From a virus, in the IMG/VR virus record IMGVR_UViG_3300035670_012729, positions 1-45,110 of that record: a stretch of 45,110 bases of DNA. One strand, given 5' to 3'. The notes under the pieces are model-generated. The model did not search any database and was not told where the DNA came from. It saw only the letters and a program-made list of their open reading frames with translations. Both the position numbers and the translations under genes were made by a program. Position 1 is the stretch's first letter. Each line of letters opens with the position of its first letter. Of the stretch, positions 1 to 45,110 are shown piece by piece.

Positions 1-1355
1 CCACAACGGCTATCGGCACAGAGGCAGGCAATATCTGGACAGCAATCAGCAGTAAAATCGGTGTCGACACCAAAATGACCAACGCCTATAACTGGGGTAC
101 AGGTCTGATGGGCGAACTCGGGAAAGGCGTAGCTTCCACCACAACGGCTATCGGCACAGAGGCAGGCAATATCTGGACAGCAATCAGCAGTAAAATCGGT
201 GTCGACACCAAAATGACCAACGCCTATAACTGGGGTACAGGTCTGATGGGCGAACTCGGGAAAGGAATCGCTTCCACCACAACGGCCATCGGCACAGAGG
301 CAGGTAATATCTGGACAGCAATCAGCAGCAAAATCGGTATCGACACCAAACTGACAAATGCCTATAACTGGGGCACTGGCCTGATGGGCGAACTGGGCAA
401 AGGAATCGCCTCCACCACAACGGCCATCGGCACAGAGGCAGGTAATATCTGGACAGCAATCAGCAGCAAAATCGGTGTCGCCACCAAAATGACCAACGCC
501 TACAACTGGGGTACAGGTCTGATGGGCGAACTCGGGAAAGGCGTAGCTTCCACCGTAACGGCTATCGGCACAGAGGCAGGTAATATCTGGACAGCAATCA
601 GCAGCAAAATCGGTATCGACACCAAACTGACAAATGCCTATAACTGGGGCACTGGCCTGATGGGCGAACTGGGCAAAGGAATCGCCTCCACCACAACGGC
701 CATCGGCACAGAGGCAGGTAATATCTGGACAGCAATCAGCAGCAAAATCGGTGTCGCCACCAAAATGACCAACGCCTACAACTGGGGTACAGGTCTGATG
801 GGCGAACTCGGGAAAGGCGTAGCTTCCACCGTAACGGCTATCGGCACAGAGGCAGGTAATATCTGGACAGCAATCAGCAATGTATTGGGGACAGCAAAAT
901 TCGAAGGAATCGGCTCAGGAATTCTGGCCGGTATCCAAACAGGAGTTGCCTCCAAAATCGTAGAATTGACAGGATATATCACTGGCGGTATGCAAGCTAT
1001 CGTCGATGCAGTAAAACGTATTTTCAATATCAGATCTCCATCCCGGGTCATGGCCGATATCGGTGCAAATCTCATGATCGGCATGGAGCGAGGCATGATC
1101 AATAATATTCCTGGCGTCATCAACGCGGCTCAATTGATGGCAGCTGGTGTGTTGGGTGTGGCCAACGGCATGTCGCTCAGCCCTTCGATGGCATTGTCTG
1201 CATCGGCGATGGGCTCTGCATCCACTGGCAATATCATCCGGCCCAGCGTCACCAACAACGCCACATACAATCTCAATTATCAGACAATGCAGTCGGCCGG
1301 CAGTGTGCAGCAGGATGTTGAGCTGCTCAACCTGCTCTATGGAGGAGCGGTGTAA
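1..1355 (+). CDS. Tail tape measure protein, C-terminal part (5' truncated by window edge)
   Basis: The reading frame is already open at base 3 and runs to the TAA at 1353-1355, so this is the 3' part of a gene cut by the window edge. It holds about six copies of a 46-residue Gly/Trp repeat (core NWGTGLMGELGKG). A non-repetitive tail of about 155 residues follows, containing RSPSRVM near base 1035, a motif common near the C-terminus of phage tape measure proteins. Tape measure proteins fill the tail tube and set tail length. The 5' part of such a gene runs off the other end of the window (41993-45110), so both are probably one gene. The stop overlaps the next ATG by one base (TAATG), as expected in a late tail operon. 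Confidence 0.85.
   Translation, partial: TTAIGTEAGNIWTAISSKIGVDTKMTNAYNWGTGLMGELGKGVASTTTAIGTEAGNIWTAISSKIGVDTKMTNAYNWGTGLMGELGKGIASTTTAIGTEAGNIWTAISSKIGIDTKLTNAYNWGTGLMGELGKGIASTTTAIGTEAGNIWTAISSKIGVATKMTNAYNWGTGLMGELGKGVASTVTAIGTEAGNIWTAISSKIGIDTKLTNAYNWGTGLMGELGKGIASTTTAIGTEAGNIWTAISSKIGVATKMTNAYNWGTGLMGELGKGVASTVTAIGTEAGNIWTAISNVLGTAKFEGIGSGILAGIQTGVASKIVELTGYITGGMQAIVDAVKRIFNIRSPSRVMADIGANLMIGMERGMINNIPGVINAAQLMAAGVLGVANGMSLSPSMALSASAMGSASTGNIIRPSVTNNATYNLNYQTMQSAGSVQQDVELLNLLYGGAV
75..890 (+). repeat. 138-bp tandem repeats in tape measure gene
   Basis: About six units of exactly 138 bp (46 codons) start at 75, 213, 351, 489, 627 and 765, with another partial unit at the window edge. 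Units 3 and 5 share one variant (GIASTTT, VATK) and units 4 and 6 another (GVASTVT). The last four units therefore look like a recently duplicated 276-bp dimer. The period is a multiple of three, so changes in copy number keep the frame. Confidence 0.93.
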
Positions 1356-7394: not shown

Positions 7395-8236
7395 CCTATA
7401 CGCTGCATCGCCTCAACGACCTCGTGCTGCGCATCGAAGCGCGTGCACGGGCAGACTGGGAGCAATGGTTTCTCGTCGCGTCGGATGTGCATCTGGACAA
7501 TCCGCATTGTGACCGGGCGCTGTTGCGTGCCCATCTGGACGAGGCGATGCAGCGTGGCGCTGGCATCGTGCTGCTGGGCGATACGCTCGACTTGATGCAG
7601 GGGCGAGACGACTCACGGCGAGACGGCGGGTCGATGAAACCGCAATATCTGATTGACTATGTGGACCAGGTGCTGGCGGATGCCAGCACTTTTTTTGCTC
7701 CATATCGGGAGCGAATTGTCATGATCAGCGAGGGCAACCACGAGTCTTCGGTGCGAAAACGGCTGGGCACCAACCCGACCAAGCGGCTGGCCGAGTCACT
7801 GGGCGTCCAGTGCATGCCCTATTCTGGCTGGCTGATGTTCCGGGTCGTGCGCGACGAGCGAGGGCGCAGCACGCACAACACGATTCGCTGCTACTACCAT
7901 CATGGCTCAGGAGGTGGCGGGGCTGTCACTCGTGGCGTCATCCAGACCAACCGTCGTGCGGCGATGGTCGATGGCGCCCACATCATGCTGAGTGGGCATA
8001 TCCACGAATCGTGGGTGCTGTGGACGCCCAGGGCAGCGGTCAACACGCAGGGCACCCCGCACGTAATAGACCAGTTGCATGTATCAACTGGCACGTACAA
8101 AGACGAATTTTCTGTGGGTGAGGGCTACCACGTGGAGCGGGGGCGTCCACCAAAACCGCTGGGCGGCATGTGGCTACGGCTGTGGTTCGACGCGCGGACG
8201 CATGGCAGCATCCGCTATGATGCGACCCGGGCCTAG
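7391..8236 (+). CDS. Calcineurin-like metallophosphoesterase
   Basis: 281 residues with the ordered metal-binding motifs of the calcineurin-like phosphoesterase fold: DVHLD (about residue 32), GDTLD (about 59), GNHES (about 114) and GHIHE (about 200). The enzyme should be a two-metal phosphomonoesterase, phosphodiesterase or nuclease. The substrate cannot be read from the sequence. In phages such genes occur near replication or as host-takeover functions; here it is the last gene of the tail operon. It overlaps the convergent RHH gene by four bases at its end. Confidence 0.85.
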   Translation: MTYTLHRLNDLVLRIEARARADWEQWFLVASDVHLDNPHCDRALLRAHLDEAMQRGAGIVLLGDTLDLMQGRDDSRRDGGSMKPQYLIDYVDQVLADASTFFAPYRERIVMISEGNHESSVRKRLGTNPTKRLAESLGVQCMPYSGWLMFRVVRDERGRSTHNTIRCYYHHGSGGGGAVTRGVIQTNRRAAMVDGAHIMLSGHIHESWVLWTPRAAVNTQGTPHVIDQLHVSTGTYKDEFSVGEGYHVERGRPPKPLGGMWLRLWFDARTHGSIRYDATRA

Positions 8237-8376
8237 TACCCTCGGGCTGTCAGGTAGTCGTCCAGTGCTGCCAACCACACCTGCGTGATGGTGTAGCCGC
8301 TGGTGTCGATGTACTTCCGAAGCCGCTCCATCATTTCGATGGGCAGCCGTATGTTTTTTTGCTGTGCGTTTTGCAT
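8233..8376 (-). CDS. Small ribbon-helix-helix (RHH) DNA-binding protein
   Basis: 47 residues starting at ATG 8376, preceded by GGAG seven bases upstream; the longer open frame upstream lacks a ribosome site and crosses a terminator. The pattern (KNIRLPIEMMERLRKYIDTSG, then TQVWLAALDDYL) is a beta strand plus two helices of a CopG/Arc-type dimeric repressor. It lies just downstream of a terminator-like hairpin, so it may be expressed by read-through. It overlaps the convergent phosphoesterase gene by four bases. Confidence 0.7.
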   Translation of the reverse strand: MQNAQQKNIRLPIEMMERLRKYIDTSGYTITQVWLAALDDYLTARGY

Positions 8377-8390
8377 TTTTTTCTCCACAG

Positions 8391-8423
8391 AAAAGGCGGC
8401 CACCTTTCTCCAGATGGCCGCCT
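8391..8423 (-). terminator. Intrinsic terminator after Csx16-like gene
   Basis: A perfect 9-bp stem (AGGCGGCCA 8394-8402 with TGGCCGCCT 8415-8423) and 12-nt loop, followed on the minus strand by TTTT. It lies between the Csx16-like gene and the RHH gene. The short U-run suggests partial termination. Confidence 0.6.
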
Positions 8424-8431
8424 GACTAAAT

Positions 8432-8890
8432 TTACAGCCGCTCGACTCGGTACCGGGACAATGTTGCCCCGGCCTCCTCCATCTGCTCCGGGGTGAGGTC
8501 AATCCCCCGGAGCTCTGCCGGCAGTCGTGGCATATCCACCACGACTACCTCGTCTGCTTCCGCCGCCAGATGCAGCGGCAGGCTACCGTAGACAACGCGA
8601 CCAGCCACTTGGTCTGGGCTGGTCACGTGGGAGATAACCTCTCCTGTGACCCCTTGCGTTTCCAGCCATGCCACTAGTCCGGCATGGCGAGTGACAACGA
8701 TGGGGTCCACTGCCGCTTTTGGCAGCGGCCTTTTTTCTACATCCCACATTTTACAAATTTGCAGGATGTGGGACTTTTGTTCTGGAGAAATGATCTGAAA
8801 TTCCTGCATTCTCCAACCTACCGACTCCCAGTTCGGGAAGCGGTTTGGGTGCATTTGCACCCAATCTAAAATCAAATTTTCTTCCATCAT
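8432..8890 (-). CDS. Csx16-like protein (putative type III CRISPR ring nuclease family), with extra N-terminal region
   Basis: 152 residues from ATG 8890, with GGGAGGTG seven bases upstream. Residues about 62-152 match my memory of the Csx16 (Cas_VVA1548) family: a strand with VVTRHAGLVAWL, then VISHV, VVYGSLPLHLAAE, and the signature LPAELRGIDLTPEQM near the end. Csx16 occurs beside type III CRISPR loci and has been assigned to the extrinsic ring nucleases that degrade cyclic oligoadenylate. A phage copy would fit an anti-CRISPR role, by analogy with AcrIII-1. Residues 1-60 (with DWVQMHPNRFPNWE) are unrecognised. It is the third gene of the operon from the promoter at 9942-9970. Confidence 0.6.
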   Translation of the reverse strand: MMEENLILDWVQMHPNRFPNWESVGWRMQEFQIISPEQKSHILQICKMWDVEKRPLPKAAVDPIVVTRHAGLVAWLETQGVTGEVISHVTSPDQVAGRVVYGSLPLHLAAEADEVVVVDMPRLPAELRGIDLTPEQMEEAGATLSRYRVERL

Positions 8891-9008
8891 TAGTGCACCT
8901 CCCAGTGCTGGTCTCCCCTCTGCATTTGCCGGCTTGGGACGGTCAGCTGGACACCTGCCAGCTGGCTGCATTAGAGTGCCTGGTTTAGCCGCCAGGCTCG
9001 GCACTGGG
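8891..9008 (-). promoter_or_regulatory. Structured intergenic leader, copy A
   Basis: 118 bp between the stop of the 9009 gene and the Csx16-like start. On the minus strand it contains three pairings: CCCAGTGC (9001-9008) with GCACTGGG (8901-8908) beside the SD site, a GCCTGG/CCAGGC hairpin, and a 7-bp stem (8944-8950 with 8958-8964). It is closely related to copies B (9591-9706) and C (14829-14930). Confidence 0.65.
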
Positions 9009-9590
9009 TTATTCGTCAACCTCCTTGTCCAGAGTGGCCAGGAGTGCCCATGCCACTGCCTGGTCGTCTTCCGGTTCCGGTGCCGGCTGCCCGGCTACTG
9101 CCAGGCCACCGGCGTCCACTTCAAAGCGAAGTGGAACGGTCTGCCACCCCATATAGGATGGCTGGAAAACTTCCACCTCCCGAATTGTCATCTCCTCTTC
9201 AACCGGATGGTTGAGGAAGAGCGGCCAGCAGAGTGGGGCCAGGTCGCCCAGCCACACTCGAATCCCCTGGTTGAGCTTCCCGTACATGCTGACATGTATG
9301 GTCGCTCGGACTGGGAAGTCCCCAGTCACAACATCCCGGCATTCCCGGAGGCGGTAGTTTTCCGCCCCCGACATTCCCACCTTGCGTTCGGTGGCGTACG
9401 GATTGCGGCGGCTACCCGCCGCCGCGTTGGCGGCCTCCCGCATGGCTGGCCATGCCTCGATTGCCAGGGCCAAATGCCCGGGGCGGGGAGCCGGGCCCGA
9501 CAGGTGGCCCATCACGAACTGCGTGCCATCGATTGCGATGGCAAAACGACCATTGCTCTCCGTCACAAAGTGCTTGATGAAGTTTTCCAT
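9009..9590 (-). CDS. Hypothetical protein of accessory operon
   Basis: 193 residues starting at ATG 9590 with GGGAGGTG upstream. No membrane segment or known motif was recognised. The C-terminal end is acidic (EPEDDQAVAWALLATLDKE). It sits second in the three-gene operon that ends with the Csx16-like gene, so a counter-defence or host-takeover role is possible but not shown. It is flanked on both sides by copies of the structured leader, so each downstream gene carries its own translation-control region. Confidence 0.65.
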   Translation of the reverse strand: MENFIKHFVTESNGRFAIAIDGTQFVMGHLSGPAPRPGHLALAIEAWPAMREAANAAAGSRRNPYATERKVGMSGAENYRLRECRDVVTGDFPVRATIHVSMYGKLNQGIRVWLGDLAPLCWPLFLNHPVEEEMTIREVEVFQPSYMGWQTVPLRFEVDAGGLAVAGQPAPEPEDDQAVAWALLATLDKEVDE

Positions 9591-9706
9591 TTCACACCTC
9601 CCAGTGCGTTACTCCCCTCTGCATTTGCCGGCTTGGGACGGTCAGCTGGACACCTGCCAGCTGGCTGCATTAGAGGCCTGGATTAGCCGCCAGGCTCGGC
9701 ATTGGT
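9591..9706 (-). promoter_or_regulatory. Structured intergenic leader, copy B
   Basis: 116 bp filling the gap between two genes. Its core is identical to copy A, including the stem CAGCTGG/CCAGCTG, the GCCTGG/CCAGGC hairpin and the GGGAGGTG ribosome site. The outer stem has one A-C mismatch relative to copy A. Confidence 0.65.
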
Positions 9707-9883
9707 TTACTCTGCTGCATCCTCCTCGGGCTTCTCAGGCCCGAAAATGGATTCGATAATTCGAACTTTTTCTTCCACTGACATTTCTTCGAACTTTTCT
9801 TCTTCTACTACTGCGGCCGGGTCTACGTAGTCTGCCCAAGCCTGAAAATTGCTGGCCATTTCTTGTATTGTTGGCGTTTTCAT
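9707..9883 (-). CDS. Small acidic protein, first gene of operon
   Basis: 58 residues from ATG 9883, with GGGAGGTG five bases upstream. Strongly acidic (more than ten Glu), predicted helical, with EEKFEEMSVEEKVRIIESIF in the middle and no Cys. It is the first gene after the promoter at 9942-9970, so probably the most abundant product of that operon. Small acidic early phage proteins are often anti-defence proteins or DNA mimics; that is only a possibility here. Confidence 0.65.
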   Translation of the reverse strand: MKTPTIQEMASNFQAWADYVDPAAVVEEEKFEEMSVEEKVRIIESIFGPEKPEEDAAE

Positions 9884-9941: not shown

Positions 9942-9970
9942 AGTATAGCAGGGTTCGCACCAAAAGTCAA
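9942..9970 (-). promoter_or_regulatory. Sigma70-like promoter P1
   Basis: On the minus strand TTGACT (9965-9970), a 17-bp spacer and TATACT (9942-9947). It lies in a gap between genes, reads into the 58-residue acidic protein, and is nearly identical in layout to P2 at 15489-15517. Confidence 0.8.
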
Positions 9971-9992: not shown

Positions 9993-10439
9993 TTAAATTT
10001 TCTGGCGATTCTCCAGCAAAAGCCTGGCGTCCGGCTCGGTGTAGTAGGCACCGTCGTCGTCCACCAGCACCCAGCCGTCGGCAGGATGCCACTCGATTGT
10101 GTGGTCAGGCATGCGCTGGCTGAGCGCTCGCAGTCTGGCTGGAGGGGTCAGCAGGATCTGCCTGGCCACGACGACGCCCATGCCCAGCACGCCGACGGCG
10201 GCCACGACTACCAGTCCGACCAACGCGTAGGTCAGTGCCAGCCTGGCGGTGGCTGCGCCTTCGGCTGCAACCCACATGCGTGCCTCGGCGTCGATGCGTG
10301 CACGCTCGGTCAGTGCGGTCTCGCGCAGCTGCACACGCTCGGTGCGCCCAGCTTCGATCATCTCGACGACGCTGGTCGCCGACGGCAACATGACGACTAC
10401 GATGCAGACGAGCGCTGCCAGCACGATCAGTTTTGTCAT
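9993..10439 (-). CDS. Membrane protein, hypothetical
   Basis: 148 residues starting at ATG 10439, with GGAGG eight bases upstream; the upstream extension of the frame lacks a ribosome site. It has an N-terminal hydrophobic segment (TKLIVLAALVCIVVVML), a charged helical region, a second membrane segment (LTYALVGLVVVAAVGVLGMG) and a soluble C-terminal domain with WHPADGWVLVDDDGAYY. It overlaps the upstream gene by ATGA. Function unknown; it is part of a cluster of small membrane proteins at the end of the long leftward operon. Confidence 0.65.
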   Translation of the reverse strand: MTKLIVLAALVCIVVVMLPSATSVVEMIEAGRTERVQLRETALTERARIDAEARMWVAAEGAATARLALTYALVGLVVVAAVGVLGMGVVVARQILLTPPARLRALSQRMPDHTIEWHPADGWVLVDDDGAYYTEPDARLLLENRQKI

Positions 10440-10702
10440 TTTCGCCTCCGGGCCCGACGAGGGGCAGGGAACAGTACGCGGCGCAACCATCGCCCGAAGT
10501 CGGGCAGCTCACCTGGCGGACATTTGACGACCACGATGACGGCACCGATGGGCGCCAGCACCAGCAGCGTCAGCGCCATTGCAGTGCCTGGCCCCTGGCC
10601 CAGCAGGGCAGTCAGGATGCCGGTCGCTTTGTCGTATTGTCCCAGCAGGATGCATCCTACTGCAATCACCCCTAGTAATCCTGCATATCCGATCCATGTC
10701 AT
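10436..10702 (-). CDS. Small membrane protein, hypothetical
   Basis: 88 residues with two hydrophobic segments (residues 4-22 and about 40-60) and a strongly basic C-terminus (RRVLFPAPRRARRRK) that should lie in the cytoplasm. The start ATG 10702 has GGAGGAGAGGG upstream, and its stop overlaps the next start (ATGA). Not recognised; a small inner-membrane protein. Confidence 0.6.
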   Translation of the reverse strand: MTWIGYAGLLGVIAVGCILLGQYDKATGILTALLGQGPGTAMALTLLVLAPIGAVIVVVKCPPGELPDFGRWLRRVLFPAPRRARRRK

Positions 10703-10749: not shown

Positions 10750-10823
10750 CAGTCTGACCTCTGGACTAGGTTAGTTAGTCAGTTGACTGACTAGACTTCT
10801 GACTATAGTCAGTCGGCCGACTA
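10750..10823. repeat. GACT/AGTC palindrome cluster
   Basis: Ten GACT or AGTC tetramers in 73 bp. They include the perfect palindromes GACTATAGTC (10801-10810) and AGTCGGCCGACT (10811-10822), and the stem TAGTCAG-TTGA-CTGACTA (10776-10793). The cluster lies in the 118-bp gap between two minus-strand genes. It could be an operator or a folded processing site; there is no U-run for a standard terminator. Confidence 0.6.
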
Positions 10824-11555
10824 ACCATCCTGCCCACAATATCGGGCCAGATGGCTCAGCGCTGCCGCCTGGTCGGTGACCGTCAACACCGTCGTGCGTC
10901 CCTCGGTGTGCCAGATACCGCTCTCGGTGACGAGCTCGTGCGCTGCCCGCCACTGCCCCTGGCTCCAGTCGTGCTCCCGAACCATAAAATCTTTGGCGAA
11001 TCGTTGGCCGGTGGTGGCCAGCCGCACCAGTTGCCGTGCATCCTCATACGTGTTGTCGCCCTCGAATTCCGTTGCTGGGCGTTCCGGCGCAACGTAGTTG
11101 GGCTGCACTGCATGCTGCGCACGATGCAGCAGCATGGTCGATTTCTGCTCAGCCTCCTGCGCTCTGGCCAACTGGGCGGTCAGCTGCGCAATCTGCATTT
11201 CTGCATCAGCCAGGGCAGCCTCGGCCGCTTCCGCCGCCTCGAGCAATTCCATTATTTCGCCGGCTTGCTCTCTCTCGTCCAGCGAGGTGCGCCACATCAT
11301 GAGTGCGCCAAACGCAACGCCGCCCAGTGCAACGCCCAGCACCACCCAGATCAGCATATCGCCCGGCCACGGCGATGCAACGACGTGCAGAAGGTATCCC
11401 AAGATTTGCGCTGCAACGCGCATGCCCAGGATGCCGACGGTCACCCCGATCCACATGCCGAAATTATCCCACCATGTTGCGTTGACCTGCGCACGCGTTT
11501 GCACCGACCGCTGGGGTACGGTCGGTGCAGTGGGCGGAATGTAATTACTCGCCAA
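10821..11555 (-). CDS. Membrane protein with coiled coil
   Basis: 244 residues. No ATG fits the N-terminus; the frame suggests TTG 11555, with a weak GGGCTCC site upstream, overlapping the 31-residue gene by 11 bp. After about 25 residues come two hydrophobic segments (around residues 30-57 and 66-87). A long Ala/Glu/Gln-rich coiled coil follows (residues 90-150, EAAEAAEAALADAEMQIAQL), then a soluble C-terminal domain (residues 160-244) that looks winged-helix-like but is not assignable. The cluster has several other membrane and coiled-coil proteins that may form one complex. Confidence 0.6.
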   Translation of the reverse strand: MASNYIPPTAPTVPQRSVQTRAQVNATWWDNFGMWIGVTVGILGMRVAAQILGYLLHVVASPWPGDMLIWVVLGVALGGVAFGALMMWRTSLDEREQAGEIMELLEAAEAAEAALADAEMQIAQLTAQLARAQEAEQKSTMLLHRAQHAVQPNYVAPERPATEFEGDNTYEDARQLVRLATTGQRFAKDFMVREHDWSQGQWRAAHELVTESGIWHTEGRTTVLTVTDQAAALSHLARYCGQDG

Positions 11556-14393: not shown

Positions 14394-14631
14394 GCTTGCT
14401 CCGTCGGTACGTGGCCTCGTCCGTCTCGTCCCAACCGATCTGGTTGAGACGGTAGGCGTTGGCGGCTGCCTGTCGATACCCCTGCTGTTGGGCAGAGGTC
14501 CGGCAGTCGCTCATCCGGCAGCCGGCTTCGAAGAGCCGGGCCCCGATCTCCCCCTCTGGAATGGGGGAGATATAATTTTTCTGGATGGAGTTTGCGGCGA
14601 TTTGCCGCAGGGTCTCGGAGGTCACGACCAC
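14386..14631 (-). CDS. Hypothetical protein
   Basis: 81 residues, basic at the C-terminus (YRRSKRG), with helical segments and two Cys near residue 40. The start overlaps the upstream gene by ten bases. Not recognised. Confidence 0.5.
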   Translation of the reverse strand: MVVTSETLRQIAANSIQKNYISPIPEGEIGARLFEAGCRMSDCRTSAQQQGYRQAAANAYRLNQIGWDETDEATYRRSKRG

Positions 14632-14828
14632 ACCTCCGTTGGGGGGAAAGTGTTGCTGGCAACCGGCATTCCGTCGCCGATTTCCAGCAGTTCGATGATA
14701 CCGGCCAGCTCGTGCATAGCGGCACGAGCTTCGGCGAATCCTTCCTGCATGATGTCATGCAGTAAAGCTTTGACGCGATCGAAATCGTCATCTCGCCCAG
14801 CGTCTTCCAGCATAAGGTCAGCCATCAT
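14622..14828 (-). CDS. Small acidic helical protein
   Basis: 68 residues, acidic, predicted almost fully helical (DFDRVKALLHDIMQEGFAEA). Two ATGs compete at 14828 and 14825; the second has the better spacing to GGGAGG. It is preceded by leader copy C. Not recognised. Confidence 0.55.
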   Translation of the reverse strand: MMADLMLEDAGRDDDFDRVKALLHDIMQEGFAEARAAMHELAGIIELLEIGDGMPVASNTFPPTEVWS

Positions 14829-14930
14829 GCACCTCCCAGTGCTACTCCCCTCTGCATTTATCCGGCTTGGGACGGGCGGCTGGACATCTGCCAGCCGGCT
14901 GCATTAGAGAGGGGCCGAAGCCCCTATTTC
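14829..14930 (-). promoter_or_regulatory. Structured intergenic leader, copy C
   Basis: 102 bp related to copies A and B. Its central stem reads CGGCTGG/CCAGCCG instead of CAGCTGG/CCAGCTG, so both partners changed and the pairing is kept. The upstream hairpin is replaced by GGGGC-UUCG-GCCCC. The SD site is again GCACTGGGAGGTGC. Confidence 0.65.
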
Positions 14931-15437
14931 CTACAGCGAAAACGCGTCTTTTCCTGGTGGCACCCAGCCAGGTGCCCAAACCAGCATGCCGGCGAAAACC
15001 TTTTTCTGGGTCCCGTCGACGATTTGGAGCGGCGGGGGAGCCACATCCACTGGGCAGGCGACCCAGGTCTGGCAAATCTGCCAGGCTGAGTCGAAGCTGG
15101 AGTCCTCGTAGACCTCCACGGTGTAGACCCGGTGCCCCTTGGGGCAGGAGTCTACAGCCTCGCGGCCCTCGTTGGTGAGGGCGATTGTAATTTCATCATT
15201 GATGCGCCACGCCACTGGGCGTGGGCGGGAAGTGGAAGTGGTGGGGGTGCCCTCTGGGATGTACTTGGCTACTTTGGCAGGGTCAACCTGCCAGGATTTT
15301 GTGGCGGCGTCCCAGCGTCCGCCGAGTTCGGATTTGATGATATCCTTGATTGGGAACGTGTTCCCCTGGAGAAACTGGCCTCCAAGGAGTGTGACTGTTG
15401 TTCCGTTGATTGTTACGTTCATCATTTTCGCCATCAT
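14931..15437 (-). CDS. Hypothetical protein, first gene of long leftward operon
   Basis: 168 residues from ATG 15437 (or 15434), with GGAGGTG just upstream. Residues about 30-55 contain IIKSELGGRWDAATKSWQV, a short motif found in many phage and plasmid proteins. A Thr/Ser/Pro linker follows, then a C-terminal half with CPKGH and other scattered Cys. It is the first gene after promoter P2 and should be expressed strongly and early. Confidence 0.6.
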   Translation of the reverse strand: MMAKMMNVTINGTTVTLLGGQFLQGNTFPIKDIIKSELGGRWDAATKSWQVDPAKVAKYIPEGTPTTSTSRPRPVAWRINDEITIALTNEGREAVDSCPKGHRVYTVEVYEDSSFDSAWQICQTWVACPVDVAPPPLQIVDGTQKKVFAGMLVWAPGWVPPGKDAFSL

Positions 15438-20181: not shown

Positions 20182-20276
20182 GGCGCGGCCGGGCTCGGCG
20201 GGGCGCGGCTAGGCGGGGCATGGCGGGGCATGGCGGGGCATGGCGCGGCCGGGCAAGGCAAGGCATGGCGAGGGAA
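20182..20276 (+). repeat. GGCNN pentamer array 4 (18 units)
   Basis: Eighteen GGCNN pentamers closed by GGGAA at 20272-20276. Three GGCGG-GGCAT pairs in a row show local dimer amplification. Confidence 0.94.
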
Positions 20277-20331
20277 GTATTCGTGATATCGGCAGCAGGG
20301 GCGTTCGAGCCGCCCCATCACGATTGCCCAG
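20277..20331 (+). ncRNA. T-arm-like structured unit 4
   Basis: A 55-nt unit of the unit 2 type. The outer stem is TCGTGAT/ATCACGA, a full T-A replacement of the C-G pair in unit 1, which is compensatory. Loop and inner stem are unchanged. Confidence 0.55.
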
Positions 20332-20381
20332 GGCTGGGCGCGGCGCGGCGTGGCTGGGCGCGGCGAGGCCAGGCCAGGGAA
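20332..20381 (+). repeat. GGCNN pentamer array 5 (9 units)
   Basis: Nine GGCNN pentamers closed by GGGAA at 20377-20381. No structured unit follows; instead a short leader with AGAAGGAGG leads into the first Trp-rich gene at 20409. Confidence 0.93.
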
Positions 20382-20408
20382 GTTCAACGACAGCAGAAGG
20401 AGGAACGC

Positions 20409-20756
20409 ATGACAGAACCTGACTGGAAGAAAGCGCCTTCGTGGGCACAGTGGTTTGCCATCGACGGCGCTGGCCGGGCTTGGTGGTATGAAATCGAGCC
20501 AACGCCGAAGTGGACTTCTTGGCGTGGGATGATATCTCACGCCGGCGAATATCTAGCCTCGGCAGCCAGAGTCCCTTCATGGGCACAATGGTTCGCTGTC
20601 GACGGCGACGGCGAAGGTTGGTGGTATGAAGTCGAGCCTACGTCGGTATGGGATTCCTCGCGTGGGATGGTATGTCGCGCTAGTGACACAACTGTCAACT
20701 GGAAAAAATCACTTCACCAGCGGCCGACAGAAGGAGAAGAACGTGACAGAGCCTGA
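20409..20756 (+). CDS. Trp-rich array protein 1 (two-domain fusion)
   Basis: 115 residues from ATG 20409, preceded by AGAAGGAGG. It contains two copies of the array domain (APSWAQWFAIDGAGRAWWYE near the start and VPSWAQWFAVDGDGEGWWYE in the middle), with DWxxSLxxRP-like NWKKSLHQRP at the end. It looks like two array genes fused by loss of the intervening stop and start. The function of the domain is unknown. It resembles small Trp-rich proteins common in phages and annotated as hypothetical. Its stop overlaps the start of the next gene by 14 bp. Confidence 0.75.
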   Translation: MTEPDWKKAPSWAQWFAIDGAGRAWWYEIEPTPKWTSWRGMISHAGEYLASAARVPSWAQWFAVDGDGEGWWYEVEPTSVWDSSRGMVCRASDTTVNWKKSLHQRPTEGEERDRA

Positions 20757-20970
20757 CTGGTCAATAGCCCCTTCGTGGGCGATGTGGTTTGCCATCAACG
20801 TCGACGGGCGAGCTTGGTGGTATGGAACAGAGCCGAAACTCAGCCAGTGGTTTGGCTGCTGGGTACCAAAACTCTGGGAAGAAAAATTTTCGTGCGAATA
20901 TGAATTTGTTGGACTACTCTATTGTGACGACTGGGAGCAGTCACTCAGGCAGCGGCCAACAGGAGAATAA
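20743..20970 (+). CDS. Trp-rich array protein 2
   Basis: 75 residues from GTG 20743, after GAAGGAG. Array pattern: EPDWSIAPSWAMWFAI, then DGRAWWY, then DDWEQSLRQRP. Over about 160 bp it is nearly identical to array protein 6 (21682), differing at only a few bases, which marks a recent block duplication. It is the only array member with a GTG start. Confidence 0.72.
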   Translation: MTEPDWSIAPSWAMWFAINVDGRAWWYGTEPKLSQWFGCWVPKLWEEKFSCEYEFVGLLYCDDWEQSLRQRPTGE

Positions 20971-21231
20971 ATGGAACCTGACTGGACGGAAGCCCCTTCG
21001 TGGGCGCAATGGCTTGCCGTCAACCGAAGCGGCTCGGCGTGGTGGTGGGATGCCAAGCCAGTGGCCAACCAAAAAACAGGCTGCTGGAGAATCACCGACG
21101 AGAATTACATGCGGTATCACGCCGGCAGATACCCCGCGGGCGATGACTGGCGGCGGGCTCTCAGGCAGCGGCCAGAGTTGGGCGCTGCGGAACAATTGTA
21201 TTTGTTTGCAGGAGTAACGCATGCAACCTGA
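20971..21231 (+). CDS. Trp-rich array protein 3
   Basis: 86 residues from ATG 20971, immediately after the previous stop, with AGGAG upstream. Array core EPDWTEAPSWAQWLAV and AWWWDAKP, ending DDWRRALRQRP. A 14-residue C-terminal tail (ELGAAEQLYLF and on) is unlike the other members and overlaps the next start by 11 bp. Confidence 0.72.
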   Translation: MEPDWTEAPSWAQWLAVNRSGSAWWWDAKPVANQKTGCWRITDENYMRYHAGRYPAGDDWRRALRQRPELGAAEQLYLFAGVTHAT

Positions 21232-21463
21232 CTGGACGACAGCGCCCTGGTGGGCGCGGTGGTTCACCGTCGACGATGACGGTGGAGGTTGGTGGTGGAA
21301 AACAAAACCGAAACCCAGAAAAAAAAGTGGCCGATGGCTCGGGCCAGATACCAGAGAATGGTATTACGCTCAGCCAGCCGGCGTCTACCCCGAATCTGCC
21401 ACCGACTGGCAGAACTCACTTTGTCAGCGTCCAACAGAAGGAGGAGAACATGACAGAACCTGA
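21221..21463 (+). CDS. Trp-rich array protein 4
   Basis: 80 residues from ATG 21221, with AGGAG upstream. Core QPDWTTAPWWARWFTVDDDGG, followed by a basic stretch KPKPRKKSGRW unusual for the otherwise acidic array, then TDWQNSLCQRP. The last codons lie over the ribosome site of the next gene. Confidence 0.72.
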   Translation: MQPDWTTAPWWARWFTVDDDGGGWWWKTKPKPRKKSGRWLGPDTREWYYAQPAGVYPESATDWQNSLCQRPTEGGEHDRT

Positions 21464-21695
21464 CTGGACGACAGCCCCTTCGTGGGCACAGTGGTTCACC
21501 ATCGACGACGACGGATACGGTTGCTGGTGGGACACCCAGCCAGTGGCCAACAAAATGATCGGTTGCTGGCAGGTGGACATGTCCAGCGACTGGTACGACA
21601 CGCAGCCAGCTGGCATATACCCTGACGCTGCAGACGACTGGGAGCACTCGCTCAGGCAGCGGCCAGTAGGAGGAGGAGAGCATGACAGAGCCTGA
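21450..21695 (+). CDS. Trp-rich array protein 5
   Basis: 81 residues from ATG 21450, after AGAAGGAGGAG. Core EPDWTTAPSWAQWFTIDDDG, a middle segment with MIGCWQVDMSSDWYD, and the end DDWEHSLRQRP. It shares PVANK-type wording with protein 3, suggesting exchange between members. Confidence 0.72.
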   Translation: MTEPDWTTAPSWAQWFTIDDDGYGCWWDTQPVANKMIGCWQVDMSSDWYDTQPAGIYPDAADDWEHSLRQRPVGGGEHDRA

Positions 21696-21927
21696 CTGGT
21701 CAACAGCCCCTTCGTGGGCGATGTGGTTTGCCATCAACGTCGACGGGCGAGCTTGGTGGTATGAAACAGAGCCGGAACTCAGCCAGTGGTTTGGCTGCTG
21801 GGTACCAAAATTCTGGGAAGAAAAATTTTCGTGCGAATACGAATTTGCTGGACTACGCTATTGTGACGACTGGGAGCACTCGCTCAGGCAGCGACCAACA
21901 GAAGGAGGAGAGCATGACAGAGCCTGA
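21682..21927 (+). CDS. Trp-rich array protein 6
   Basis: 81 residues from ATG 21682, with GGAGGAGAG upstream. It is the near-identical sister of protein 2 (APSWAMWFAINVDGRAWWYE, FGCWVPKFWEEKFSC). Here the GTG start is ATG and the C-terminus is longer (TEGGEHDRA). Confidence 0.72.
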   Translation: MTEPDWSTAPSWAMWFAINVDGRAWWYETEPELSQWFGCWVPKFWEEKFSCEYEFAGLRYCDDWEHSLRQRPTEGGEHDRA

Positions 21928-22168
21928 CTGGTTACTCGCCCCCAAATGGGCAGAGTGGTTCGCCGTCGATGATGACGGCGAAGCATGGTGGTATGAAACA
22001 AAGCCATATATTAAAACAAAATACGGTGTATGGCGACACGAGTTTCATCCAGAACCAAACATCTATTGGAGCTGTGAATATGCCGGTAATTACCCCGACG
22101 CTGTAGACGACTGGGAGCACTCGCTCAGGCAGCGGCCAGTAGGAGGAGAAGAGCATGACAGAGCCTGA
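21914..22168 (+). CDS. Trp-rich array protein 7
   Basis: 84 residues from ATG 21914, with GGAGGAGAG upstream. Core EPDWLLAPKWAEWFAVDDDG and AWWYETKPY, then an aromatic middle (NIYWSCEYAGNYP), then DDWEHSLRQRP. Strongly acidic. Confidence 0.72.
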   Translation: MTEPDWLLAPKWAEWFAVDDDGEAWWYETKPYIKTKYGVWRHEFHPEPNIYWSCEYAGNYPDAVDDWEHSLRQRPVGGEEHDRA

Positions 22169-22376
22169 CTGGAATCAATCCCCTTCGTGGGCAGAGTGGT
22201 TCGCCATTGATGACGACGGCGAAGCATGGTGGTACGAGACAAAGCCCCACGCCAAAACGAACGATGGTATGTGGCGGCAAGAATTTCCCGGGAACATTTA
22301 TCGGAGTTCCGAGCATGCCGGTGTTTACCCCGAAGCCGCCGCCGACTGGCAGGACTCGCTCAGGCAGCGCCCATGA
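22155..22376 (+). CDS. Trp-rich array protein 8 (last)
   Basis: 73 residues from ATG 22155, after GGAGGAGAAGAG. Core EPDWNQSPSWAEWFAIDDDG, then AWWYETKP, ending exactly at ADWQDSLRQRP. It lacks the GGEHDRA tail because no array gene follows. Its stop overlaps the next, unrelated gene by ATGA. Confidence 0.72.
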   Translation: MTEPDWNQSPSWAEWFAIDDDGEAWWYETKPHAKTNDGMWRQEFPGNIYRSSEHAGVYPEAAADWQDSLRQRP

Positions 22377-41992: not shown

Positions 41993-44900
41993 ATGTCCAC
42001 AGTAGAAATACTCATCAATGCGCAGGACAATGCATCGTCCAAACTGGATAATGTGGGCAACTCGCTCGAGCGTCTGGGCTCCAAAACTGGCGGCATAGAA
42101 TCGTCGTTTGCCAATCTGCAAAAAACCATCTCGGTAGGTGTGGTCGGTGCTGTTGCTGCGCTGGGCGCATCGCTGGCCGGCCTGACAGCTGTCGTCACCG
42201 ATGGCGTCGGCAAGGCGGCCGATCTAGAACAGGGCGTCGCCGACATCGCTGCGGTCATGGGCGTCGCATCCGACGAGGTCGCTCCTCTCAAAAAACTCAT
42301 CGGCGACCTGGGCATGGATCCGACGCTGAAGGTCAACTCGACCGAAGCCGCCGATGCCATCATGCAACTGGCACAATCCGGTATCAGCATGTCGGAAATC
42401 ATGGATGGCGCTGCCAAAAATGTGGTGCTGCTCAGCAATGCGACTGGCGGTGACATGGCGCTCAGCGCTGCCATTGCATCGGATGCGATGGCGTTGTTTG
42501 GCATCTCGGCTCAGGACATGGCCGTAGCCGTCAATCAAATTACCGGCGTGACAGTAGCCAGCAAATTTGGCATCGAGGATTATCAGTACGCGTTGGCCGC
42601 CGTGGGTGGAGTTGCCTCGACGTTAGGTGTTTCATTTACCGACCTCAACACTACCATCGCGGCAATTTCCCCTTCGTTTGCGAGCGGTTCGGATGCTGGT
42701 ACGTCGCTAAAAACAATGTTGTCGAGAATGATTCCTGCGTCGGAAGATGCAGCTGAGGCCATGCGGCAAATCGGCTTGTTTTCTGGCATGACATCTGGTG
42801 AGATGGAAAGTGCCCAGAAACAAGCCAAAAAACTTCAGGATAAAATCGCTGCGTTAGATCCTACATCGGCAGAGTACACTGAAAAATCTGCATTGCTCAA
42901 TCAACAATTGCAAAATGTCAATGCGTCAATGGTTTCCGGACAGAATGCATTTTTCAATACTGATGGTTCAATGAAGAGCATGGCGGAAATTTCAGGGATT
43001 CTACAAAATGCATTGTCAGGATTGTCAGACGAACAAAAAGCTGCCACACTAAACACCATTTTCGGATCTGATGCTATTCGAGCAGCGTCGGCATTAGCCG
43101 GCTTAGGTTCTGCAGAATTTGACAAATTAGCTGCCAGCATCGGTCAGGTGGATGCTGGCCAGTCTGCAGCCACACGCATGGATACATTTGGCGGCACGAT
43201 GGAGGTTCTGGCGGGCATCGTTGACAGCCTGTCGATACAAATCGGCGATGCGTTTCTGCCAGTGCTGCGCAATCTGGCGCAATGGGCCATAAACTTCACG
43301 ACCCAAAATGGCCAGGCGCTTATCGGACTATTCCAACAACTGGCTGGTGTGCTGGATTTTGTCTTGGGATACTTCACAGCGACCATCGAGCGCGGCACGC
43401 TCATGAATGAGCAGTTCGAAAAATTGCCTAGAGCCATCCAGCCGATTGTGGAATTTGTGTCGTCACTCGCTACGGCGGTGAGTAGGCTACTGATTCAGCA
43501 AGAATACTGGAAAGATCTTCTCATCGCAGTAGGTATCGTACTGACAACCATATTAGCTCCGGCTATCGCTGGTTTCCTGGCAGCGTTTGCACCTGTCGCC
43601 GCTCTGCTGGGCGGAATAATTGTAGTCGTGCGCAAACTGCGGAAGACATTTGCAGTTCAGTTCGGTGCCATTTTTGACAATTTATCCCATATGATTCAGC
43701 TCGTACTTGCATGGACATCCGGTATGCTCACCGGTTGGGTGTCTGTCGAAAAAGGACTGAAAAATGTGGGCGATGCATTCAAAATCCACTTGGGCCGAGC
43801 GTATGATCAATTCCTAATCATATTCAACGCGATACTGGTGTGGGTGGTCAACAGTTTACCTCTCTGGATTAGCAATCTGCAATCGTGGGCCGCCGCATCC
43901 TGGCAATGGCTGGTCGATGTGGTACCTGTTGTGCTGGAAAAAATAGGCGCATGGGGTGCAGCGCTCATCGGCTGGGTAATCGAAAATTTGCCAGCGTGGG
44001 TGGCAACATTCCAAGATTGGGCTGCCGCAATATGGCAATGGCTGGTCGATGTGGTACCTATTGTGCTGGAAAAAATAGGTGCATGGGGTGCAGCGCTCAT
44101 CGGCTGGGTAATCGAAAATTTGCCAGCGTGGGTGGCAACATTCCAAGATTGGGCAGTGGCAATATGGCAATGGCTCGTCGATGTGGTACCTGTTGTGCTG
44201 GAAAAAATAGGCGCATGGGGTGCAGCGCTCATCGGCTGGGTGACCGAAAATTTGCCAGCGTGGGTGGCAACATTCCAAGATTGGGCAGTGGCAATATGGC
44301 AATGGCTCGTCGATGTAACACCAATAGCTGTCGAAAAAATAGGCGCATGGGGTGCAGCACTCATTGGTTGGGTGACTGAGAATCATCCTGCCTGGGCCGC
44401 ATCATTCAGCGACTGGTCTGCTGCTACATGGCAATGGATTGTCGATGCGACTCCCACCGGCACAGAAAAATTGGTTGAATGGGCCGAGACATACTACACG
44501 TGGCTGGGCGAAAATTTGCCTGACTGGATCGAGGCATTCCTCGACTGGTCACTGGCTATGGTCGAATGGATAGGCGAAGCTCTTCCAGAGGCGATCCGGG
44601 CAATCGGTAATTTTGTGCAGGGTATATCGGATACCGGCGATGAAGAAGGAAAGTCTCAGTTTCCAGGACTGGTTTCTGGCTGGGCAGGCGCGCTAATCAA
44701 CTGGATCACAAATGATTTGATTCCGCAGGTCGGCCCAAAATTTTTACTACTCATGCAGAAATATGCCCAAGCCATGTTGAATATAGCTGTTGAACTGGGA
44801 AAATTAGCGATTATTTTAGCGGTGAAATTGTGGGAATGGATTGTTGAAGTTACCCCGATTGCGGTTGAAAAGTTGAAGGAATGGGGCGGCGCATTGCGTG

Positions 44901-45110
44901 ACTGGATAACCGAAAATCTTCCAGCTTGGATTGAAAAACTCCGAGAATGGGGTGCAGCTATTTGGGAATGGCTCGTTGAAGTCACCCCGATTGCGGTTGA
45001 AAAGTTGAAGGAATGGGGCGGCGCATTGCGTGACTGGATAACCGAAAATCTTCCAGCTTGGATTGAAAAACTCCGAGAATGGGGTGCAGCTATTTGGGAA
45101 TGGCTCGTTG
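41993..45110 (+). CDS. Tail tape measure protein, N-terminal part (runs off window)
   Basis: ATG 41993 with AGGAG seven bases upstream; the frame stays open to the window edge (more than 1030 codons). Residues about 70-270 match the TP901 tape measure core (GVADIAAVMGVASDEVAPLKKLI, then AADAIMQLAQSGISMSEIM and GSDAGTSLKTMLSRM). A Gln/Lys coiled region and a long hydrophobic stretch (GIVLTTILAPAIAGFLAAFAPVAALLGGIIVVV, about residues 513-546) follow. From about 43859 come Trp-rich 44-residue repeats. The product sets tail length and may aid DNA passage. The gene continues, probably into base 1 of this window. Confidence 0.9.
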   Translation, partial: MSTVEILINAQDNASSKLDNVGNSLERLGSKTGGIESSFANLQKTISVGVVGAVAALGASLAGLTAVVTDGVGKAADLEQGVADIAAVMGVASDEVAPLKKLIGDLGMDPTLKVNSTEAADAIMQLAQSGISMSEIMDGAAKNVVLLSNATGGDMALSAAIASDAMALFGISAQDMAVAVNQITGVTVASKFGIEDYQYALAAVGGVASTLGVSFTDLNTTIAAISPSFASGSDAGTSLKTMLSRMIPASEDAAEAMRQIGLFSGMTSGEMESAQKQAKKLQDKIAALDPTSAEYTEKSALLNQQLQNVNASMVSGQNAFFNTDGSMKSMAEISGILQNALSGLSDEQKAATLNTIFGSDAIRAASALAGLGSAEFDKLAASIGQVDAGQSAATRMDTFGGTMEVLAGIVDSLSIQIGDAFLPVLRNLAQWAINFTTQNGQALIGLFQQLAGVLDFVLGYFTATIERGTLMNEQFEKLPRAIQPIVEFVSSLATAVSRLLIQQEYWKDLLIAVGIVLTTILAPAIAGFLAAFAPVAALLGGIIVVVRKLRKTFAVQFGAIFDNLSHMIQLVLAWTSGMLTGWVSVEKGLKNVGDAFKIHLGRAYDQFLIIFNAILVWVVNSLPLWISNLQSWAAASWQWLVDVVPVVLEKIGAWGAALIGWVIENLPAWVATFQDWAAAIWQWLVDVVPIVLEKIGAWGAALIGWVIENLPAWVATFQDWAVAIWQWLVDVVPVVLEKIGAWGAALIGWVTENLPAWVATFQDWAVAIWQWLVDVTPIAVEKIGAWGAALIGWVTENHPAWAASFSDWSAATWQWIVDATPTGTEKLVEWAETYYTWLGENLPDWIEAFLDWSLAMVEWIGEALPEAIRAIGNFVQGISDTGDEEGKSQFPGLVSGWAGALINWITNDLIPQVGPKFLLLMQKYAQAMLNIAVELGKLAIILAVKLWEWIVEVTPIAVEKLKEWGGALRDWITENLPAWIEKLREWGAAIWEWLVEVTPIAVEKLKEWGGALRDWITENLPAWIEKLREWGAAIWEWLV
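43859..44500 (+). repeat. 132-bp tandem repeats in tape measure gene, group 1
   Basis: About five in-frame units of 132 bp (44 codons) with the pattern W-Q-W-L-V-D-V-V-P, E-K-I-G-A-W-G-A-A-L-I-G-W-V, ENLPAWVATF. Three consecutive units keep exactly 132-bp spacing (43981, 44113, 44245); later units diverge. Regularly spaced Trp and Phe are known in tape measure repeats. Confidence 0.92.
44843..45110 (+). repeat. 132-bp tandem repeats, group 2, cut by window edge
   Basis: Two units of 132 bp (44843-44974 and 44975-45106) that differ at one base, and the window ends as a third begins. Near-identity makes assembly collapse likely. Confidence 0.93.

Follow-up and report, generated by a model that had tools for sequence, protein, structure and literature searches.

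Csx16 was first predicted and then shown experimentally to be a ring nuclease that is specific for cA4 and leaves cA6 untouched; the cellular enzyme cleaves cA4 fully at 100-fold substrate excess (PMC12409355). Hoikkala and colleagues counted Csx16 in 2 of 28,114 phage genomes without describing the context (PMC12409355), so that a phage-encoded Csx16 is not new in itself. We found no solved Csx16 structure and, in the literature searched, no biochemistry on any viral Csx16. AcrIII-1 (the viral Crn2, DUF1874) is likewise virus-encoded and is a cA4 ring nuclease acting as an anti-CRISPR, but represents a different family, whereas Crn4b of phages and plasmids has a fold unrelated to that of the phage Csx16. 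Among anti-CRISPRs directed at type I-E systems, the two-headed AcrIE4-F7 depends on E19, Y20 and D22 for binding Cas8e (PMC8887544). Twister ribozymes, for their part, are enriched near phage genes for an unknown reason (PMC10085705, PMC4604425). Here we describe a phage in which an AcrIE4 homolog, an orphan protein and an N-terminally extended Csx16 are combined in a single operon, with predicted ribozymes at the gene junctions. As a layout, this combination is new; cleavage by the ribozymes is inferred.

The window, that is, the whole stretch of DNA analyzed, comprises 45,110 nt of IMG/VR record IMGVR_UViG_3300035670_012729. The tape-measure ORF runs off both ends of the window (1-1355 and 41993-45110) in frames that fit together; the record could therefore represent a complete, circularly permuted genome of 45.1 kb. 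The host remains unidentified because a megablast search of the right half of the window against phages produced no match. Elsewhere in the genome, small paralogous ORFs that start with MTEPDW..APSWAQWFAIDDDG.AWW stand in tandem in at least five or six copies (20220-22376), and a large intergenic inverted repeat of AGTCAGT units (TTAGTCAGTTGACTGACTA; 10768-10831), which might be an operator or a recombination site, lies upstream of ORF 10436-10702.

Three genes, of which csx16 is the last, make up a unit that a promoter and a terminator of its own enclose (Table 1), a layout that is read from the sequence. Three promoter-like sites were found in the 2.8-kb region, compared with 0.6 expected in shuffled sequences. 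The second gene, ORF-B, had no match in Pfam, NCBIfam, PHROGs, PADLOC, the INPHARED phages or the IMG/VR scan and none that was significant in PDB, and its AF2 model, built from the single sequence, was uninformative (pLDDT 33). The 47-aa ORF that follows the terminator could encode a regulator, which is an inference only.

Table 1. Features of the csx16 operon and its surroundings (positions in the window)
Feature	Position	Strand	Description	Evidence
csx16	8432..8890	minus	152 aa; residues 63-152 form the Csx16 (Cas_VVA1548) domain; start codon ATG at 8890	PF09652 77 bits; PADLOC Csx16 70 bits
N-terminal extension of Csx16	8705..8890	minus	residues 1-62, helical, no known relative	G+C contrast; AF2 pLDDT 53-67
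csx16 Shine-Dalgarno GGGAGGTG	8896..8903	minus	part of the GCACTGGGAGGTG module common to all three operon genes	sequence
Twister-P1 copy 1	8912..8977	minus	between ORF-B and csx16	RF03160 52.7 bits, E 4.3e-9, positions 1-68 of 68
Predicted cleavage, copy 1	between 8973 and 8972	minus	U|A	
Hairpin GCCTGG-CGGCTAAA-CCAGGC	8978..8997	minus	directly 5' of copy 1	sequence; repeat of the 9676-9695 copy
ORF-B	9009..9590	minus	193 aa, orphan, second operon gene	no relatives in libraries searched
Twister-P1 copy 2	9611..9676	minus	between ORF-A and ORF-B	RF03160 51.1 bits, E 1.3e-8, positions 1-68 of 68
Predicted cleavage, copy 2	between 9672 and 9671	minus	U|A	
Hairpin GCCTGG-CGGCTAAT-CCAGGC	9676..9695	minus	directly 5' of copy 2, ends about 4 nt before the predicted cleavage site	folding
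ORF-A	9707..9883	minus	58 aa, AcrIE4 homolog (type I-E anti-CRISPR domain)	PDB 7vzm; PF25703
Operon promoter TTGACT - 17 nt - TATACT	9942..9970	minus	TG before -10; directly upstream of ORF-A	10/12 consensus positions
Intrinsic terminator of operon	8394..8423	minus	12-bp stem, T-rich tail	
Ribbon-helix-helix-like ORF	8233..8376	minus	47 aa, start ATG 8376; directly after terminator	weak Arc match below cut-off
Twister-P1 copy 3	14844..14910	minus	outside the operon	RF03160 58.2 bits, E 1.1e-10

The earlier note, made from the sequence alone, held that the C-terminal 90 residues of the third protein carry the Csx16/Cas_VVA1548 pattern including the LPAELRG signature, and it named PF09652 and TIGR02620 as the profiles to search. 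The assignment held. In the Pfam search, residues 65-149 matched PF09652 (Cas_VVA1548/Csx16) with E 1.3e-21 and 77 bits, above the curated cut-off of 25, and the match covers the full domain (profile positions 2-90 of 91); several Csx16 models of PADLOC also matched far above chance (best E 4e-20). The NCBI model TIGR02620 matched with E 6e-10, but its 39.2 bits do not reach the curated cut-off of 46.35, for which reason we classify the phage protein as a divergent member of Csx16 that falls outside the equivalog-level definition of TIGR02620. The LPAELRG signature occupies residues 123-129, the motifs RHxGxxxW, GxLP and RG are present, and all residues invariant across 23 aligned homologs (R68, H69, G71, W75, G102, P105 and R128) are kept. 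Of the two observations that would have refuted the assignment according to the note, a lack of HMM similarity and a loss of pocket residues, the first is excluded by the significant HMM match; as to residues, none that is family-invariant is lost. The only significant Pfam family is Cas_VVA1548, with no match to DUF1874 (AcrIII-1).

Structural comparison, which bears on the CARF-like or derived Rossmann fold expected of a cA4 ring nuclease, gave weaker signals. VIA-align placed cOA-binding CRISPR proteins at ranks 1-6 for the predicted fold, with Z of only 3.9-4.4 (8y7g, 9jxx, 6scf, 9jxw, 9c68 and 7z55); these are Csx1-Crn2 with cA4 (8y7g), SiRe_0806 twice, AcrIII-1 (6scf), Cad1-CARF and Sis0455. 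These values are similar to the Z of 4.8 that the authors of PMC12409355 obtained for Csx16 against a viral Crn2 homolog, and the comparison with 6scf (Z 4.1) suggests relatedness of the core to AcrIII-1. The first aligned residues pair model residue 61 with 487 in 8y7g and with 39 in 6scf; as inferred from the printed alignment ranges, H69 would fall, if there is no gap, on residue 47 of 6scf and, in 8y7g, on H495, which is replaced by alanine (H495A) in that entry. A Foldseek search of the predicted Csx16 against PDB and BFVD retrieved nothing significant.

The claim that about 60 N-terminal residues lie outside the usual family was likewise borne out. This extension of about 62 residues is real because the annotated start has the GCACTGGGAGGTG module that also precedes both upstream genes, whereas the later in-frame ATG codons (28 and 48) lack a comparable Shine-Dalgarno sequence. 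Sequence searches detected no homolog of it among phages or in PDB. AF2 modeled the core with pLDDT of about 97 and the extension with only 53-67. The G+C content is 45% in the extension vs 63% in the core, and since a step that large occurs in only 3 of 580 window pairs within the phage's genes, csx16 appears to be a recent fusion. A plus-strand terminator-like hairpin (GCCGCTTTTGGCAGCGGCCTTTTTT; 8710-8729) is located at the junction of extension and core, where it might serve as the terminator of the structural operon or mark where the two parts were fused. Extensions of other kinds occur in two further viral Csx16s, of about 80 aa in L011 and of about 65 aa with a CxxC pair in L016, and Crn4 proteins of phages and plasmids carry extensions of 60-80 aa of unknown function (PMC12830947). 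Regulation or binding had been suggested as the role of the extension; a second activity, oligomerization and binding of a defense protein are all possible.

The first gene of the operon, ORF-A, is a homolog of AcrIE4 with a conserved binding face. It matches the N-terminal domain of AcrIE4-F7 (PDB 7vzm; phmmer E 1.2e-7, 19/49 identical, 39%) and Pfam PF25703 (33.2 bits, cut-off 27), and D18, Y19 and D21 correspond to E19, Y20 and D22 of AcrIE4-F7, so that the essential binding residues of the AcrIE4 domain, common to AcrIE4, AcrIE4-F7 and ORF-A, are kept in kind. Unlike AcrIE4-F7, ORF-A is a stand-alone protein, in which a short acidic tail replaces the AcrIF7 domain; its pI is 4.1. Binding to Cas8e and inhibition of type I-E systems are inferred. 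A scan of IMG/VR with an AcrIE4 alignment retrieved known AcrIE4-F7 only. Pfam gives PF25703 the name AcrF31, which may be misleading as to the target type, given that the solved protein matched by ORF-A is AcrIE4-F7, in its AcrIE4 domain; no paper using either AcrIF31 or AcrF31 was found in the literature searched.

Searches of IMG/VR with the full Csx16 protein, ORF-B or ORF-A as single sequences yielded no relatives. An alignment-based scan of IMG/VR retrieved ten loci with Csx16; further viral carriers are one more locus (L078), Methanobacterium virus Drs3 and a contig of a MAG that resembles a phage (L018). The INPHARED search produced only two records, both of Drs3, which might be the two phage genomes of Hoikkala and colleagues. 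The Csx16 of Drs3 is likewise virus-encoded and outside any CRISPR locus, but it lacks an extension, comes from an archaeal virus, has other neighbors and is 43.5% identical to the phage protein. Cellular Csx16s of type III systems, in whose family cleavage of cA4 has been proven by assay (PMC12409355), share with the phage protein the domain, the invariant residues and the predicted fold; compared with the CRISPR-linked ones (roughly 30-44% identity), the phage protein belongs to a viral branch, carries the extension and has no cas neighbors. Indeed, none of the viral Csx16s examined is next to cas genes, whereas CRISPR-linked Csx16s adjoin them. Cas10 is absent from all 13 virus and plasmid records with Csx16 and was matched in 12 of the 16 cellular genomes with Csx16, the weakest of these matches being near the cut-off. 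A phage-borne type III CRISPR system was rejected, as no Cas10 was found.

Phylogenetic analysis placed the phage protein in the viral branch. In a tree of 30 sequences, CRISPR-linked Csx16s and three others form one group (support 99/99) that leaves the viral ones outside; in a tree of 53 sequences (support 92/87), one side holds 37 cellular Csx16s and the other 13 viral ones, including the phage protein of the window, together with one from an archaeal plasmid and two methanogen sequences. Because the sampling leans to Pseudomonadota and retrieval was motif-based, we regard the split between viral and CRISPR-linked Csx16s as probable, a strong hint and not a census. Several unusual forms of the domain were observed among the sequences collected. 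On plasmid pMESIL02 of Allomeiothermus silvanus (L003:4992-5777), a gene that adjoins a conjugation gene and is not in a CRISPR locus specifies a protein of 261 aa, in which two degenerate Csx16-like units follow each other in tandem. In seven cellular loci (L051, L052, L057, L068, L069, L070, L075), the Csx16 domain is C-terminal in long open frames that contain a HEPN-like RNDxEH motif and match the CARF_HEPN_CSX16 fusion class of PADLOC. One viral Csx16 of only 63 aa (L015:6833-7024) lacks the middle of the domain, with the first motif joined to the LRG motif, which could be either a natural deletion or an assembly error.

The spaces between the operon genes are occupied by near-identical repeats of about 130 nt that match Rfam twister-P1 over its full length. 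The third copy, outside the operon, sits between ORF 14931-15437 and a 67-aa ORF (14622-14825), preceded by a UUCG hairpin and followed by the same SD module as in the operon genes. The core blocks UAA, GUCCCAAGCC and GAGGG are intact in the three copies, and copy 3 differs from copies 1 and 2 by a compensatory change in one stem, where G-C takes the place of an A-U pair. The matches are significant, but their scores are under the Rfam gathering threshold; that the repeats are self-cleaving ribozymes is likely, with cleavage inferred. In the twister class, the scissile bond is the U|A of the UAA. In front of each of the three copies is a hairpin, whose end lies a few nucleotides from the predicted cleavage site, and the hairpins before copies 1 and 2 are conserved. 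Across phages, hairpins directly upstream of the point of twister cleavage have a mean z of -1.3 (n=36) and an energy of -8 or lower in 69% of sites vs 50% of shuffles, an excess that is no more than suggestive. The same core pattern was found in 41 stretches of other phages, usually between same-strand genes; 2 of the 17 scanned phage loci pass the twister-P1 gathering score, and 3 carry a Twister-P5, Pistol or Twister-sister ribozyme. In L105, L109 and L091, more than one ribozyme class occurs close together (the twister-P1 pattern with Twister-sister, Pistol or Twister-P5). The association of RF03160 with phage genes is already known, but in the present phage two copies stand between the genes of a proposed anti-CRISPR operon, a setting for which, to our knowledge, there is no previous report.

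No match to Csx16, AcrIE4 or twister-P1 was detected in 30 IMG/VR records with a related terminase (49-99% identical to that of the phage), and the cassette accordingly appears to be accessory, which would fit an anti-defense role. Many of these records are fragments, the three closest relatives are short, and the run had no positive control; the same searches do detect the window's own copies.

Taken as a whole, the locus most likely encodes a virus-branch Csx16 ring nuclease in a ribozyme-punctuated anti-CRISPR operon directed against type I-E and type III systems; the catalysis, the dimer, the cA4 substrate, ribozyme cleavage in vivo and the benefit to the phage are inferred, and the host is unknown. 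Under this model, host type III Cas10 would make cA4 upon infection, and a Csx16 dimer would bind it and cut it to linear products via the conserved R-H motif, leaving CARF effectors inactive. ORF-A would act as an AcrIE4-like DNA mimic blocking Cas8e of type I-E Cascade, and ORF-B would be an unknown factor of the same transcription unit. One strong promoter would yield a polycistronic RNA, cut by twister-P1 at U|A in both gene junctions. A hairpin would then close the upstream message, and every downstream one would have a folded ribozyme at its 5' end, ahead of a strong ribosome-binding site of its own. A counter-defense role against type III CRISPR, as proposed in the earlier note, is supported independently by context, because csx16 shares a short operon with an AcrIE4 homolog in a phage without Cas10; ring-nuclease activity of the phage protein has not been shown. 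Of the two substrates suggested there for assay, cA4 and cA6, the tested Csx16 cleaves only the former, and the AcrIE4-like neighbor and the two twister ribozymes were not listed in that note. Overall, the domain claim was right and the claim of role is probably right, with catalysis inferred.

Four alternatives to this interpretation were considered. First, the viral Csx16 could be a sponge that binds cA4 without useful degradation, with the extension stabilizing an oligomer. Phage cOA sponges exist, Csx15 has been proposed as one (PMC12409355), and the extension is new and helical; however, the family-invariant residues are all kept, R68 and H69 among them, and the cellular Csx16 cleaves a 100-fold excess of cA4 fully, so this appears unlikely. 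Also unlikely, but the least so of the four, is the possibility that the twister-like repeats have decayed, or serve only as spacers, and do not cleave: their scores (51-58 bits) are below the gathering score of RF03160 (67.2), but the matches are full-length (E 1e-8 to 1e-10), the three core blocks are intact in all copies and one stem change is compensatory. Another cyclic-nucleotide defense, such as CBASS, is an improbable target. The signals of CBASS are attacked by phage phosphodiesterases, Acb1 among them (cited in PMC12830947), and the host and its defenses are unknown, but the tested Csx16 is cA4-specific, cellular homologs reside in type III loci and csx16 shares an operon with an AcrIE4 homolog. 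Finally, CRISPR loci are where Csx16 is best known, but the idea that the phage gene strayed in from a host or belongs to a phage-borne type III system, without a counter-defense role, is very hard to reconcile with the absence of Cas10 from the phage and its viral relatives, the grouping with viral and not CRISPR-linked Csx16s, and a unit that has its own promoter, SDs and terminator.

Returning to the anti-CRISPR operon, a bolder and more speculative reading is that it is modular, with self-cleaving ribozymes as gene junctions. The repeated hairpin-twister-SD cassettes might produce separate, end-protected messages, direct repeats might let anti-CRISPR genes swap in and out, and Csx16 might represent a virus-specific ring-nuclease branch in which the added N-terminal domain provides a second function, as in AcrIE4-F7.

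The split between viral and CRISPR-linked members of the Csx16 family recalls the story of AcrIII-1 and Crn2, and the sharing of an operon with a homolog of a proven anti-CRISPR is good in silico support for viral Csx16 as an anti-CRISPR. The arrangement predicts that a single phage would disarm type I-E and type III defenses together, and the putative ribozymes between the anti-CRISPR genes offer a concrete and cheap route to the function of phage twisters.
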